This document shows positions 2,258-9,301 of a DNA stretch of 35,816 bases, piece after piece. The position numbers and the translations under genes were made by a program. The DNA lies in the NCBI GenBank assembly GCA_030247525.1, contig JAOTSC010000011.1:1-35816 (forward strand), in the 5' to 3' direction. Within the stretch, counting starts at the first letter, position 1. The number at the start of each line of letters is the position of its first letter. Source of the DNA: a bacterium. GTDB lineage: Bacteria; Electryoneota; JAOADG01. A model generated the notes under the pieces. It saw only the letters and a list, made by a program, of their open reading frames with translations, was not told the DNA's origin and did not search any database.

Positions 2258-2848
2258 TTATGACTTGGCAGCCATTTTCTTTTCGACCCACTCCGCGCCA
2301 GCAAAACCACCCACTGCCATCAATACAACGGCAAACACGATGAATCCATAGGGAACATGCAACAATTGAGGCAAAGTGATGTTTCCCATCGGCGTTGCAT
2401 AGAAAAAAGACTTCAACAAGGGGAACATTGCACCGAAAACGAAGATTCCGAAAATGACTCCGAGCAAATATGCAACACCGTCAAGCTTGCCAGTTGCAGC
2501 CGCGACACAGGACGTTCCGGGGCAATAGCCGCCAATTGCAAACCCGATTCCAAGCACTAATCCGCCGACGATTTGCGGCATTAGATATGTTGGATTGAGA
2601 TACACTTGTGATAGATCGACGAATCCAATCCACGATAACCAAAAGAGACCTAACATCGCAGTAACGATTGCTGTAAACATTACTTTGAAGACACTGAGAT
2701 CGGTTAAATAGAATTGCGCGACGAGTTTTTTACTGCTGCCAAAACCAGCACGTTCGAGAAAGAAACCGAAACCGATTCCGATCAGAAAAGCTACTATCAA
2801 GCTGATTTCATCGCCAAAAACCCCAAACTTGTATAACGGTGCGTTCAT
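2258..2848 (-). CDS. YeeE/YedE-family sulfur transporter, second half-protein
   Basis: A 196-residue integral membrane protein of the YeeE/YedE (DUF395) family, whose full-length members import thiosulfate or related sulfur species through a path of conserved Cys residues. The signature GGYCPGTSC lies near the middle, with about five hydrophobic segments, and the protein ends in a Lys-rich tail. The ATG at 2848 overlaps the stop of the preceding half-protein in an ATGA arrangement, so I took that start over longer frames running into its neighbour. Half-size proteins normally pair, so this and the gene at 2845-3426 probably form one channel. The sulfur substrate is inferred from the family and operon. 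Confidence 0.85.
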   Translation of the reverse strand: MNAPLYKFGVFGDEISLIVAFLIGIGFGFFLERAGFGSSKKLVAQFYLTDLSVFKVMFTAIVTAMLGLFWLSWIGFVDLSQVYLNPTYLMPQIVGGLVLGIGFAIGGYCPGTSCVAAATGKLDGVAYLLGVIFGIFVFGAMFPLLKSFFYATPMGNITLPQLLHVPYGFIVFAVVLMAVGGFAGAEWVEKKMAAKS

Positions 2849-3426
2849 TTCCACTGTCTCCGAATGAAGTATGCCACTGCATACGCTCCTCCAAACACCA
2901 TCATCATAAACGCCCAACTTCCGACATTTAGTAATGCTCCTCCGGTCAAAGCCTGTCCACTGGTACAACCACGAGCAAGTTTCGCTCCGAATCCCATAAG
3001 GGCTCCACCCAAAAATGCAAAGGCGAGCCGACCGGTTACTGATATTCTCGGACCACGTTCCGTTGTTACGTTCACTCGATGAGCAAGCATACCGGACAAG
3101 AATCCTCCAACAAACACTCCGAGTACTTCAAACACCAGCCAATCTTTTAATGGACTTTTTGAAGTGTCTGCAAGATATTCGGCATAAAACTCATTGGTCG
3201 TGGCATGAGTTGGCACAGTGCTTTGGACACCCATTGCAACCAGCGATGAGAATGCTCCGGAGGCGCCAAGACCACGTCCCATCACAACAAATGCCGCGAG
3301 CAATACCAGCCCTAATCCAATACCTGCAAGATAGGGGTTGGAATACGGTTGCGGCTTCTTCACGACCGCTTCGGCTGGATTCGAATGCGGCTGGTTTGTG
3401 AGGATAGCGGCAGAGACATCTGACAT
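2845..3426 (-). CDS. YeeE/YedE-family sulfur transporter, first half-protein
   Basis: A 193-residue membrane protein of the same family as its downstream neighbour but carrying the other half signature, GAKLARGCTSGQALTGGALL. It has a long soluble N-terminal stretch, then roughly four hydrophobic segments. A 55-residue hydrophilic loop between the first and second (about residues 70-95) is probably outside the membrane. The ATG at 3426 was preferred over one six codons earlier because AGGAGG sits 7 bases upstream. Coupling by ATGA with the next gene implies equimolar synthesis. It sits directly after the NrfD subunit, so sulfur uptake or export is tied to the oxidoreductase. Confidence 0.85.
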   Translation of the reverse strand: MSDVSAAILTNQPHSNPAEAVVKKPQPYSNPYLAGIGLGLVLLAAFVVMGRGLGASGAFSSLVAMGVQSTVPTHATTNEFYAEYLADTSKSPLKDWLVFEVLGVFVGGFLSGMLAHRVNVTTERGPRISVTGRLAFAFLGGALMGFGAKLARGCTSGQALTGGALLNVGSWAFMMMVFGGAYAVAYFIRRQWK

Positions 3427-3450
3427 CGGATTTCCTCCTAACATACTCGA

Positions 3451-4434
3451 TCAGTGTAAAACTGTTATAACCGGATTATTCTGTGGTGTGAGTAGCCAAC
3501 TACTTTGCTGTCCGGCTGCGACGATAATGAACCGCAAGACGATACCGCCGCCAATGACAAGCAGCGGAGCAATAGGGGTGTGTTTCACTTTATGTGTGAC
3601 GGCAAGGCTTTGCACAACAAGAGGAATCACAATACCAATCCCGACAACAAATACCCAGAACGGCGCGGCGTACTCGCCAATCAACAAGAGTTTGGCTGCG
3701 TTTTGATGAGCGGCGGTCGACGACAATAATCCAACCAGAAATAAAACGATAACAAACAACTCAATGATCAGAAATCCGTTATCAGCTTTTGCGAGAAGCT
3801 CCCGCTCGAATTTCTCTTGAGCGATTAGATGAACGAATGCAGCCGCCGCGGACAGACCCGAAATCACAAAGAGAAACCAGAGAATCGAACTATTCCATAA
3901 GGGACGCGCTCCCAATGCACTGAGCAGAATACCGGTGTACATCCCCAGCACTGCGCCCAAAGCCATATTAACGATACCGATGATTCGATAGGAATTCGGT
4001 AAGTCAGATATTCGACTCGACAACTTCATTAAGAACGACAATCTACTTTTCAGGAAGAATGGGATGTGTTCATGTATCTTCAAGAGGATTGTTGCGAGCA
4101 GCGCAGGATAGACAAGAAGCAAAATCCACGAACCCCACGACATGGGTGATGTTGGTTGGAAGGTAGTGTACAACCGCCAGACATAGAGCTTGTGTTCGAG
4201 ATCGAGAAACAATGCAAACATCCCAAGCGAAAGAAAAACGATACCAAGCAACGGCATCGTATAACACATGCTGCGAGATGTTTTGTGTCGTCCCGATAAC
4301 AAGAAGTACCCTCCAATCATCATCATACCGGCAACCAATCCCCCTAAAAACAGATAGACCGGGATTTGCCATTCCCAAATGTGCATTACGGGGTCGATCT
4401 GGATGTTATGACGGGTTATCGTTACTTCGTGCAT
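3451..4434 (-). CDS. NrfD/PsrC-family quinone-interacting membrane subunit
   Basis: A 327-residue, highly hydrophobic protein with about eight to nine membrane spans, of the NrfD/PsrC family (PF03916 type). It begins with the short amphipathic stretch HIWEWQIPVYLFLGGLVAG typical of the family. Such subunits anchor the catalytic and iron-sulfur subunits to the membrane and exchange electrons with the quinone pool. A GGAG sits 8 bases before the ATG at 4434. With the Tat-signal Mo subunit, the four-cluster ferredoxin and sulfur-transport genes, it completes a CISM-type complex of the polysulfide/thiosulfate reductase or sulfite dehydrogenase kind. The direction of electron flow cannot be told from sequence. 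Confidence 0.88.
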   Translation of the reverse strand: MHEVTITRHNIQIDPVMHIWEWQIPVYLFLGGLVAGMMMIGGYFLLSGRHKTSRSMCYTMPLLGIVFLSLGMFALFLDLEHKLYVWRLYTTFQPTSPMSWGSWILLLVYPALLATILLKIHEHIPFFLKSRLSFLMKLSSRISDLPNSYRIIGIVNMALGAVLGMYTGILLSALGARPLWNSSILWFLFVISGLSAAAAFVHLIAQEKFERELLAKADNGFLIIELFVIVLFLVGLLSSTAAHQNAAKLLLIGEYAAPFWVFVVGIGIVIPLVVQSLAVTHKVKHTPIAPLLVIGGGIVLRFIIVAAGQQSSWLLTPQNNPVITVLH

Positions 4435-4454: not shown

Positions 4455-5426
4455 CTACGATTTAGCTATTGGTAACATGTTTGCCGCTTGCAAAACTGCG
4501 AGCGCTTCCACTGTAACAAACACGTTGGCGTGTATTTTACTTGTTCCACCCCAATCGACTTGAGAGAAACCGCTTAAGGTTGACTTGGTCTGTTGGTACC
4601 ACTTCTCTTCACACGGGAAACCGCCATCCGGGAGCATTTTTGATTGTAGCAATTCGAGTGCTGGCTGGCTGCGAAGATCGAGTAGGAAACCACCTTCGCA
4701 CAAAACTCGCAAACCAAGTAGAATGTCATAATGCCAAAAACTCGGATAGTGAAGCTTCGTAAAATGGTGATCGATGATTTGATCATTCGTCAATCGGCGA
4801 TACAATTTTCGACTTAAAAAAAGTTCGGCGGCTCGGATAACTGCGGCTCGGGCACTTTCATCGTTTCGCCAATTTGCATAGGCGATAAGACCCCGGAGTG
4901 GAGAGATCGATTCGTGAAAGGAGGAATGAATCGCTGCGGGATGTTTATCACAATTCCAACCGCCGTCGTTCCATTGCCATTGTAGTAGATTGGCGGCTAA
5001 CTCGTCGCAGCGGCTATCGGCGATTCCGAGCGTGCAGGTTGCGAACAGTGCATTCCCCTCTTGCGATGCACACGTCCGCACCCTGCCGTCGATCACTCTC
5101 ACATAGTGTTTGTTTTTTCCTTTCGCGATCCAATGATTCAATACCGCTTCTCTTAACGGGTACAGTTCTTTGCTATCAACGGGATAACCAAGCTCCGCCA
5201 GTAAAACAAGTGACCAATGTGCCCCATGCCATTTTGCGTAAACATCGTCAAGCGTGCATCCGGCAAGTAATCGTCGGGTACGATCCGACTGCTTTATGAG
5301 AATGCGCATTCGCTTAACAGACGGAGTATTTGGCGATTCACCCAGAATTGCCGTGAGGGCTCGCCAGCGCACCGACGGTTCCGCAGATTGCAGTATACGC
5401 TCGATCATTTTGTCGCTTATTGGCAC
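4455..5426 (-). CDS. Terpenoid-cyclase/prenyltransferase-like alpha-toroid protein, function unknown
   Basis: A 323-residue soluble protein with no signal peptide. Two glycine-tryptophan/phenylalanine repeats, WNDGGWNCDKHP (middle) and LPDGGFPCEEKWY (C-terminal part), resemble the QW/DGG repeats of the squalene-cyclase and prenyltransferase alpha/alpha-toroid fold. The DxDD acid motif of squalene-hopene cyclases is not evident, so catalysis of cyclisation is doubtful. It lies inside the oxidoreductase operon between the ferredoxin and NrfD subunits with gaps of only 13 and 20 bp, an unusual place for this fold. It might be an assembly factor or act on a lipid or quinone; that is speculation. 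Fold assignment is moderate, function unassigned. Confidence 0.65.
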   Translation of the reverse strand: MPISDKMIERILQSAEPSVRWRALTAILGESPNTPSVKRMRILIKQSDRTRRLLAGCTLDDVYAKWHGAHWSLVLLAELGYPVDSKELYPLREAVLNHWIAKGKNKHYVRVIDGRVRTCASQEGNALFATCTLGIADSRCDELAANLLQWQWNDGGWNCDKHPAAIHSSFHESISPLRGLIAYANWRNDESARAAVIRAAELFLSRKLYRRLTNDQIIDHHFTKLHYPSFWHYDILLGLRVLCEGGFLLDLRSQPALELLQSKMLPDGGFPCEEKWYQQTKSTLSGFSQVDWGGTSKIHANVFVTVEALAVLQAANMLPIAKS

Positions 5427-5439
5427 AGCTCTCTCATTG

Positions 5440-5979
5440 CTAACTCAAGTAATAGACATGTGGTGCAGTGCCAGCTTCCGGCAACAGGGCGTGATACTTA
5501 CGCGATCGCAAATGCTTACTGACTTCACTCTCGGGATCTTCAATATCTCCGAAATACATACAATGGGTTGGGCAAACCGAGACACATGCTGGATTTTTTC
5601 CTTGCTCCACCCGATGGATACAAAATGTACATTTATCGGCATAACCATCAGGATGAATGAAGCGGGCATCATAGGGACAAGCTGCGAGGCAAGCTTTGCA
5701 TCCAATACACTTAACTTGTTCGACCAAGATGACCCCGCCTAAATCATGGATATGGCTGGCACCAGTCGGACAACAGTAAACACAAGGCGGATTGTCGCAG
5801 TGGTTGCAACGTTCGCTCCTCAACTCCATATGCAAGTCAGGGAATTTTCCGGTAACCTCCTGCGTCAACCAATCGCGATCAAAACCTTGCGGAACATGGT
5901 TCTCTGTTTTACATGCGATAACACAATCCATGCAACTGACGCATTTCAGCGTATCGATCACCATTGCAAAGCGCGCCAT
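5440..5979 (-). CDS. Four-[4Fe-4S] ferredoxin subunit of the molybdopterin oxidoreductase (PsrB/NrfC type)
   Basis: The electron-transfer subunit between the catalytic and membrane subunits. The 179-residue protein has sixteen Cys in four sets: 13/16/19/23, 58/61/66/70, 91/94/97/101 and 117/120/132/136, the standard arrangement for DmsB/PsrB/NrfC proteins. There is no signal peptide, as expected for a partner co-exported with a Tat-signal subunit. The start at 5979 follows the stop of the catalytic gene with one base between, preceded by GAGGTG. Nothing suggests damage in this gene, in contrast to its upstream partner. Confidence 0.93.
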   Translation of the reverse strand: MARFAMVIDTLKCVSCMDCVIACKTENHVPQGFDRDWLTQEVTGKFPDLHMELRSERCNHCDNPPCVYCCPTGASHIHDLGGVILVEQVKCIGCKACLAACPYDARFIHPDGYADKCTFCIHRVEQGKNPACVSVCPTHCMYFGDIEDPESEVSKHLRSRKYHALLPEAGTAPHVYYLS

Positions 5980-5980
5980 G

Positions 5981-8191
5981 TTACACCTCGCCCGGTACGA
6001 TAGTAACGAAGTTCACATTCATCGCCGTCCCCCCCATCAACGGATCGACTCGATACTTAGTAATAAGTTGCGAATCGCTGGCACCTTTGCGGTAGGTATG
6101 CTTTACCCGCTTCACCGTGTGCCCGAATCCATGAACCATGAACACAGAATCGGGTCGAATTCGCTCAGTCACTTTTACTTTGATTGGGTCGCTGACAATA
6201 CCATCTTGATTCTTCAACTTCACTTTATCGCCACTCTTTAACTCGAGTCGTAGAGCAACATCGGCATTCAACCAGATTTCATTTTCCGACATTACATCCG
6301 AAAGTAGACGATTGGTTTGGGTTCGGCTGAAAGAGTGCATCGGCGCTCGACCATATAGTAAACGGAAATATCCCGGTGGCGGTTCTTCCGGTGGGGTGAA
6401 TTTGGGAATTGGATCGTATCCCGCTTGCAGCAACTGTAAGGAATAGAATTCAACTTTTCCCGATGGGGTGGGAAACTCAAGCGGCACGCCTTCTTCTTGG
6501 AAGATTGGATGATGCGCTCCGACGATTACTCCATCGCGCTTCAATTGAGCATAGTCGTAACCAGCTTTCGATAACCTTGTTGTGAAGTATTCCTCGATAT
6601 CTTGCCATGGAAAGTAATGGGATAATCCTAATTTACCGGCAAGTTGCTTCGCCATCCACCAATTCGGCTTTTGATCATGCGGTGCTTTCACAACTGGCTG
6701 TCGCAATGCTATAAACGGTTCGCGGAACCATTCGACATTGAGGTCGTCGTGACGCTCGAGGTAAACCGATTCGGGGAGTATCACATCTGCCCACCCTGCA
6801 ATTTCACTCGGAACAACATCGACTACGACAAGTAAATCAAAGTTTTGAATAGCTGAGATTGTCTATTTTTAACTGGGCAATGCTTGCAATAAGTTCGTAG
6901 AGTATACGAACAAAACTTTTACGGGATAAGGCTTTCCTGTGATTGTTGCTTCACGGATACCGTTCGTAATCGTCTCGTGGGCGAATGGGTATCTGTGTTC
7001 GGGATTGTCAACTTTTTCCTTTTCTGATGGTGGATAGTGCGGATAAGGATAACCGGGAACGTCAAGCGAAGCCGGAGTGTAGAAACCGCCTTTCTTGCCC
7101 CAATTTCCCATCAAAGCATTGAGTAATGCAATTGCGCGACTGCGCTGAGCATCGTCACCGTACCAAGTTACATGACGTCCAGGGTGAATGAGTGTCGCAG
7201 GGCGATAGCGCGCCATTTCCCGTGCGGTGTTACGAATTTTCTCGGGATCAATGGTTGTGACAGGATATGCCCATTCCGGCGTGTATTGTGCGATTTCAGC
7301 AGCAAATTGCTCAAATCCAAAACCATACTTTGCTACAAACTCGATATCGTATAGCCGTTCAGTTACAAGTACATTCATCCAAGCCAAGAGTAAGGCAAGA
7401 TCGGTACCGGGCTTAACCGGTAAATACCATTTGGCTTTTCCGGCTGCAATTGAAAAGCGGGGATCGGCGACAATTAAAGCTGCGCCATTACCAATCGCTT
7501 CCGCGAATTCCTGCACTTGACTGTTGTGCATGTTTTCACCGAGATGCGATCCAATCAATACGATACATTGGGCGTTTTTTATATCCGTGCGTTCCGGTGA
7601 ACCCACATCTTCGCCAAAGGTGAGTCGAAATCCAACATCACGGGGACCGCGACATTGAGCAAACGAGGGAGCTGTGATATTCGGCGAACCGTAAGCCTTG
7701 AAGAGATGTTTGAAGAAATTTCCACCGATGCCGTGGCTAAACAACGCCATCGCTTCAGCACCATACTGCGCTTTCATCTTCGTCATTTTATCGGCAATGT
7801 AACCGAGTGCCTCATCCCAGGTAACTTCCGTCCACTCTTCCCCACCGCGCGCTTTTCTTCGCATGAGTGGCGCTCGTAACCGGTCGGGATCGTAGTGGGC
7901 TCCTACACCGCCGGTACCCCGGGGACACAGTCTCCCGCGGCATAACGGATCTAATGGATTCCCTTCGACTTTCCACATTTTACCATCGATAACGTGTGCA
8001 ATTGCGCTGCATTTCCAAAAACAGATATCGCAAAACGTAGGTATCATTTCGAGGTGGGATTTATTTTTTCCGTCGATAACGTCCGTAGCTTGTGCAACGA
8101 GTTTCGACCAATCGACAAGTGGAGCGGTTGCGGCGGCAGTGGCACCCACACCTGCAATCTTTAAAAACCTTCTTCGGGATAACGGGTCCAT
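5981..8191 (-). pseudogene. Tat-exported molybdopterin oxidoreductase catalytic subunit interrupted by two in-frame stops
   Basis: PsrA/PhsA-like subunit binding Mo-bis-guanine dinucleotide and one [4Fe-4S] cluster. The N-terminus has a Tat motif (SRRRFLK, residues 5-11) and hydrophobic stretch. The cluster motif follows (Cys54, Cys57, Cys61, Cys89), then a likely Mo-ligand Cys in PSFAQCRGPRDVG. The frame stays the same from 8191 to 5981 (736 codons, normal PsrA/PhsA size) but carries TAA at 6869-6871 and TAG at 6863-6865, separated by one AAA codon. Sequence on both sides reads as a continuous homologue (LLQALPS, then TISAIQNFDLLVVVD). No ATG with a ribosome site follows the stops, so the C-terminal part is unlikely to be made separately. 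Recent nonsense inactivation or sequence error are the likely explanations. Confidence 0.85.
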
Positions 8192-8289: not shown

Positions 8290-8386
8290 GTCTACTATTG
8301 ATTTTCTTTATATGATTGTATACGTTGTTACTACCACTTAATTTTATCTTTTACACGGAGTTGTACTACTCCTATGGAGCTTGGTA

Positions 8387-9301
8387 ATGATCCTCGATAA
8401 ACGAATGCAGGTGTTTTTGGCGGTCGCAAATGCAGGTAGTTTCAGTAAAGCAGCTCGTCAATTGGGTTTAAGTCAACCGGCACTAAGCTTTCATGTTAAG
8501 TCGCTTGAATCGGATCTTGGAGAAGAGCTTTTCAACCGGCAAGGGAGAAAAATATCACTGACTCCGGTTGGCTTAGAGCTGTTTCGCAGTGGCAATAAAC
8601 TCGCCGCTCAAGTTCAAAGTATAGAGATTGAACTAACCCGTTTTAGTAAGCACATTCATAGCAAGATTGGATTGGGCGGCGATTCGCTTACTTGTGCATA
8701 TACACTACCGTGGACAGTGGCTGCTTACCGAAAAGCCCATCCAGCAACAGTTTTTAGTTACCGTCACTTCAACCGAGAGTTGCTCATTGAGGGAATCGCC
8801 GAGGGGACACTCGATATTGGATTTGCGGGGAGTAAAGTAGAACACCGAAAGATCGATGTTCAACCTTGTTTCAACGATGAAGTTATTCTTGTTGCTGCCA
8901 GTAATTCTCCCGCAAAAGTGATTACCTGTGAGGGATTACGTGAATTGCCCATTATCTGGTTGACATCGGACCAAGGGCTGGAAATGGCAGTACAACAAGC
9001 GTTAAAATTACACGGAATATTGCCAAATCAATTACCTATTGCGATCGAAGTAGAAGAGTTGCCGCTTGCAAAATCATTTGTCGAGGCGGGATTCGGGGCA
9101 GCATTCATGTCACGAATAGCTGTTTTATCAGAGTTGCGAAATCATCAACTACGTGAAGTGAAAATCCATAGATTAGAGATTACTCGGACAACTTACCGGC
9201 TCACTCGAAAAGAAAAACAGCCACGTGAAAATATCAACGAGTTTATCACTTATCTACAGCAACAGCTTTGGGTGGAGAAACTCGCTTTACCCTCTTCGTG
9301 A
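8387..9301 (+). CDS. LysR-family transcriptional regulator
   Basis: A 304-residue regulator with an N-terminal winged helix-turn-helix (AARQLGLSQPALSFHVKSLE, near residues 20-40) followed by a substrate-binding-like effector domain starting near residue 95. A TTG six bases earlier is possible, but the ATG at 8387 has GGAG seven bases upstream and was preferred. It diverges from the sulfur oxidoreductase operon, the classical arrangement for a LysR protein that controls its neighbour, so a sulfur compound or cofactor-state effector is plausible. The effector cannot be identified from sequence. It converges on the hexosaminidase gene with a 20-bp gap. Confidence 0.88.
   Translation: MILDKRMQVFLAVANAGSFSKAARQLGLSQPALSFHVKSLESDLGEELFNRQGRKISLTPVGLELFRSGNKLAAQVQSIEIELTRFSKHIHSKIGLGGDSLTCAYTLPWTVAAYRKAHPATVFSYRHFNRELLIEGIAEGTLDIGFAGSKVEHRKIDVQPCFNDEVILVAASNSPAKVITCEGLRELPIIWLTSDQGLEMAVQQALKLHGILPNQLPIAIEVEELPLAKSFVEAGFGAAFMSRIAVLSELRNHQLREVKIHRLEITRTTYRLTRKEKQPRENINEFITYLQQQLWVEKLALPSS

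Follow-up and report, generated by a model that had tools for sequence, protein, structure and literature searches.

Two in-frame stop codons interrupt a reductase gene

The window, by which we mean the whole 35,816-nt stretch of DNA analysed here, contains a gene for a molybdopterin catalytic subunit whose reading frame carries two stop codons, which raises the question of whether the enzyme has been lost, the stops are read through, or the sequence is wrong. On the minus strand, TAA (6871-6869), AAA (6868-6866) and TAG (6865-6863) follow one another in frame at codons 441-443 (6863-6871), with 6886-6848 reading ...CAA GCA TTG CCC AGT TAA AAA TAG ACA ATC TCA GCT ATT.... As reported in a preliminary description of the locus, the frame is open for 440 codons upstream of the TAA, from an ATG at 8191 (5′ part, 6869-8191, minus strand), and for 293 codons downstream of the TAG, to a TAA at 5981 (3′ part, 5981-6862, minus strand). 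The same description held that length is unchanged at the stops, and this too is what we find: the match of the NCBIfam PhsA profile (NF012032) to the first piece reaches profile position 444 at residue 438, and that to the second piece restarts at profile position 451 with residue 2. This spacing is exactly that of an uninterrupted protein, indicating zero length change, and closer relatives align across the site without a gap.

Judged by sequence, the interrupted gene is a predicted PsrA/PhsA-type polysulfide/thiosulfate reductase catalytic subunit gene of the DMSO reductase superfamily. Molybdopterin, Fe4S4 and molydopterin-dinucleotide-binding domains are detected above curated cut-offs (PF04879, PF00384 in both halves, PF01568), the last of these domains in the 3′ part. 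The 5′ part retains the [4Fe-4S] cysteines (CDICFWKC...CPRG) and the SFAQCRGPRD stretch as in relatives, the conserved Cys of SFAQC being presumably the Mo ligand, and carries a Tat signal (TIGR01409 above cut-off, PF10518 just under its own). NF012032 is the top NCBIfam match for both halves; scored apart they reach 319 and 166.5 bits against an equivalog cut-off of 694 for the whole protein, so we file the gene as PsrA/PhsA-type and not as PhsA proper. Among PDB structures, the 3′ half matches Thermus 2vpw best (E 1.5e-90), an entry that bears the name thiosulfate reductase.

The operon follows the plan of these PsrA/PhsA systems (Thermus 2vpw, NF012032), with B (4Fe-4S) and C (NrfD) subunits, and departs from it in the two in-frame stops with their block of atypical residues (codons 426-451) and in an extra ORF between the B and C genes. 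All on the minus strand, a PhsB/PsrB-type 4Fe-4S electron-transfer subunit (5440-5979), an NrfD/PsrC-type membrane subunit (3451-4434), two Sulf_transp (YeeE/TsuA-type) half-transporters (2258-3444) and a rhodanese-domain protein (1584-2291) are intact, in an order (A, B, C, two Sulf_transp halves, rhodanese) that is widely conserved among relatives. The neighbouring ferredoxin and NrfD subunits had been described as intact; both are, although they are separated by the extra ORF (4455-5426, minus strand, 323 aa). This ORF has no Pfam or NCBIfam match, is absent from relatives' operons, and, when 60 related genomes were searched, yielded nothing beyond weak, distant matches.

This run of genes ends with a MobA-like gene (743-1339), directly upstream of which lies a Moco (molybdenum/tungsten) riboswitch (RF01055, 1390-1506, minus strand, 53.8 bits). 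A divergent LysR-type regulator gene (8381-9301, plus strand) adjoins the operon; its nearest NCBIfam model is the selenium-metabolism-associated LysR, at 193.9 bits and so below the cut-off of 250.

Relatives read through the site with sense codons

We compared the gene with a homologue set of 80 loci from one scan of genome contigs, plus 7 from 61 related genomes. The alignment to close homologues that had been proposed as a check gives a uniform answer: all relatives covering the site read through, and no aligned relative has a stop or split at codons 441-443. The closest (70-74% identity) mostly have LPN-Glu-x-Glu-Thr-Ile, coded GAR NNN GAR ACN AT, where the window has TAA AAA TAG. Six homologues in 38 other genomes of the phylum likewise have no stop at the site; a TAA counted in the homologue of genome G027 is probably its terminal stop.

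Within the genome itself, a PF00384 profile search returned one TAG and one TAA inside its match to the interrupted gene and two other family members, both without stops. No second copy of the catalytic subunit gene was found in the genome, and with only those two other PF00384 proteins present we rejected a replacing paralogue.

The homologue set also held PsrA/PhsA-like genes of two Chloroflexi that share one in-frame TGA (L069:4794-4796 and L080:4794-4796). Their proteins are 77% identical, and the TGA sits exactly where the related proteins L066 and L077 have Cys (SGAGG-U/C-..PGEE). About 25 nt past it, a conserved GGCAGGUCUGCC stem-loop resembles a bacterial SECIS. A full-length selB scores over the cut-off in the L069 genome, and none does in the L080 genome. 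From these sequence features, the pair looks like a candidate selenocysteine-containing PsrA-like enzyme.

Stop codon usage argues against readthrough

That the organism reads through the stops had been offered as one explanation. The frame is open and conserved on both sides of them, which counts in favour of functional readthrough, stop reassignment or an enzyme made naturally in two pieces, yet several lines of evidence make this group of explanations highly improbable. First, RF1 (prfA, 365 aa) is present in the genome, and all 39 tRNAs found in the 98% complete assembly have sense anticodons, with no CUA or UUA among them; the genome thus shows neither a suppressor tRNA nor the loss of the matching release factor expected for a recoded gene. 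Second, both codons are ordinary terminators: of 219 long ORFs sampled over 314 kb, 101 end in TAA and 57 in TAG. RF1, the tRNA set and this stop usage led us to reject code reassignment or suppression. Third, no relative has a stop or split here, and even leaky termination would almost never let a ribosome pass two stops spaced two codons apart. Finally, a two-piece enzyme is disfavoured by the lack of a start codon within 20 codons after the TAG; a separate second half would need to start at a GTG (6784), 26 codons into the conserved part. The suggestion of readthrough is therefore unsupported.

In the same genome, prfB was apparently missing from a PF00472 search, which found only an N-terminal piece on contig C139; most simply, this is a gene broken by the assembly.

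The stops lie within a short block of mostly G>T changes

We scored each residue of the gene against 34 close homologues, and the most unusual 20-codon stretch was at residue 431 (z 4.5). Taking as strongly atypical those sites at which at least 75% of homologues agree and the window's residue is nearly unseen, the gene has 16, and 6 of the 16 fall within 26 codons (426-451), which make up 3.5% of the gene. These are G426V (GTT), W427L (TTG), A431S (TCT), N440S (AGT), E443* (TAG) and L451F (TTT). Codon 441 (TAA) is Glu in most homologues and is too variable to enter the list. Together, the affected codons (V426, L427, S431, S440, stop441, K442, stop443, S446 and F451) form a block of clustered atypical changes of ~78 nt at 6839-6916 (minus strand). 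The lesion had been placed at 6863-6871; the stops are there as described, but the abnormality is broader, extending over about 6839-6916.

Only a G>T change on the coding strand can produce four of the six block sites (G426V, W427L, A431S and E443*). F451 and TAA441 could also have arisen that way, whereas N440S (A>G), K442 and S446 call for something other than G>T alone. Elsewhere in the gene and in five partner genes, none of 23 listed sites is G>T-compatible. When the same procedure was applied to each of the 34 intact homologues, 10 of 266 sites were G>T-only, and an equally dense cluster appeared in one other gene, without any G>T. At the rate of 10/266, four of six would have a binomial probability of ~3e-5, a guide and no strict test because the block was located via the stops; with the stop codon left out, three of five block sites are still G>T-only. 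Base composition shows the same skew: codon positions 1 and 2 of the block contain 5 G and 21 T, fewer G and more T than any relative has at these positions (mean 10.2 G, minimum 7; mean 11.6 T, maximum 15). The two stops are part of one short, mostly G>T block, not separate lesions.

The rest of the gene and its partners remain constrained

If selection on the enzyme had been lost and independent nonsense mutations had followed, damage should not be confined to this block. Gene-wide, 4 of 224 invariant columns deviate, which is within the range of intact relatives; this ranks third of 35, yet the deviations are few and conservative, and one of them, C682S, gives the Ser that many distant relatives carry. 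In phsB, phsC, the two transporter halves and the rhodanese gene, every invariant column is kept. Relaxed constraint along the gene, as a decaying pseudogene would show, was thus not found, and we rejected whole-gene decay, the deviations being within the intact-relative range and the damage limited to one block.

An ordinary pseudogene would account for the two stops, the respiratory pathway being dispensable, and the one family-mate examined (genome G001) does not have the gene. Against this stand the absence of any frameshift, the few and mostly conservative or tolerated conserved-site changes outside the block, the full constraint on the five partner genes tested, and the clustering of atypical sites in so small a fraction of the gene; we consider such decay improbable. 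The earlier proposal of a recent loss can take two forms: separate nonsense mutations, which are a poor fit given that damaging changes are not in excess outside the block, and a single local event, which fits.

We also scanned 1.82 Mb of the assembly, in stretches amounting to about half of it, for coding potential continuing across stops. Among 47 same-frame stop junctions, the catalytic subunit lesion is the sole one without a start codon within 20 codons after the stop; most others have one a few codons on, and those inspected look like gene-gene junctions. A second such lesion was not found in this half of the genome at the scan's moderate sensitivity; the catalytic subunit lesion itself is barely over threshold (0.37 vs 0.35), so the scan may miss others.

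A probable consensus error or a possible single mutation burst

Contiguous, mostly one-type changes in an otherwise constrained gene point to one event, and an error confined to this stretch of sequence, or else a single rare burst of mutation, is more likely than ordinary decay or a new reading of the stops. The suspicion that two stops one codon apart reflect a single multi-base event or an assembly artefact is thereby supported and extended, as the stops lie within a mostly G>T block of ~78 nt.

We infer a technical cause, and on balance favour a consensus base error in a draft, MAG-like assembly as the origin of the stops and their block, since errors of the one-sided G>T kind are known and the assembly is also a fragmented draft (305 contigs), presumably short-read judging by that fragmentation. 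In four-colour Illumina chemistry, A/C and G/T share lasers, and near read ends 40-45% of the errors at G were miscalls to T (PMC4381044). Oxidation of guanine ex vivo is reported to produce strand-asymmetric G>T artefacts (PMC12390751). The one-sided G>T of the present block resembles these Illumina and guanine-oxidation error profiles. A consensus error would create the whole block in one step in a metagenome-type draft, possibly where the consensus was called from just one or a few reads that were poor or oxidised; the organism's real gene would then be open and would encode a normal periplasmic reductase subunit. Sequence-error 'pseudogenes' in draft and metagenome-assembled genomes likewise show stops in an otherwise constrained gene, but the present block would be several errors in one short stretch, beyond a single miscall.

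Some observations weigh against an error. At least five consensus errors in 78 nt would need very thin coverage, yet the contig is the 11th in a numbering that starts with the longest one (67 kb) and descends. No second such lesion turned up in about half of the genome, and the changes at N440S (A>G), K442 and S446 fall outside pure G>T. In addition, the outermost changed codons lie within a 9-nt inverted repeat, which could indicate a real hairpin-linked event. The repeat (AAAGTTTTG/CAAAACTTT, 6839-6847/6911-6919) is perfect, has arms 63 nt apart, is the only such repeat in the gene, and is partly created by the changes themselves.

The alternative is biological: a real, clustered mutation event that destroyed the enzyme very recently, a possibility we take seriously while judging it less probable than an error. 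Such an event could proceed by strand-coordinated G>T at oxidised guanines in single-stranded DNA left exposed, by error-prone repair synthesis, or by hairpin-templated replication at the inverted repeat flanking the block, with the rest of the operon as yet undecayed. The changes are grouped and of one kind, the repeat spans the outermost changed codons, and no second gene copy could substitute for the first. The block's DNA folding signal (z = -2.4 vs shuffles) also goes in this direction, weakly, the region having been chosen after the fact; the RNA fold reaches just z = -1.7. On the other side, bacteria rarely acquire five or more changes within 78 nt in one burst, and template switching cannot yield all the changes in one contiguous copy. 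The present block is like clustered or multinucleotide mutation (mutation showers, quasi-palindrome correction) in its nearby, seemingly simultaneous changes with an inverted repeat at the ends, and differs in that the repeat leaves some changes unexplained and no donor was found.

No donor for a 106-nt stretch was found in the genome, and the core has no good local template, so gene conversion or template copying was rejected. Inversion between the repeat arms was rejected because the family aligns to the segment in the orientation that it now has. As a specific history, a genuine strand-coordinated G>T burst in ~80 nt of chromosome, perhaps started by a hairpin of the 9-nt inverted repeat and recorded soon after it had inactivated the respiratory molybdoenzyme, seems to us rather unlikely.

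If the favoured consensus error is the cause, sulfur respiration would be wrongly annotated as lost in this genome, and conserved codons hit by a one-sided G>T block could help to spot unreliable consensus stretches in draft genomes. A real block would instead document, as nature rarely does, a bacterial G>T mutation cluster that arose in a single event.
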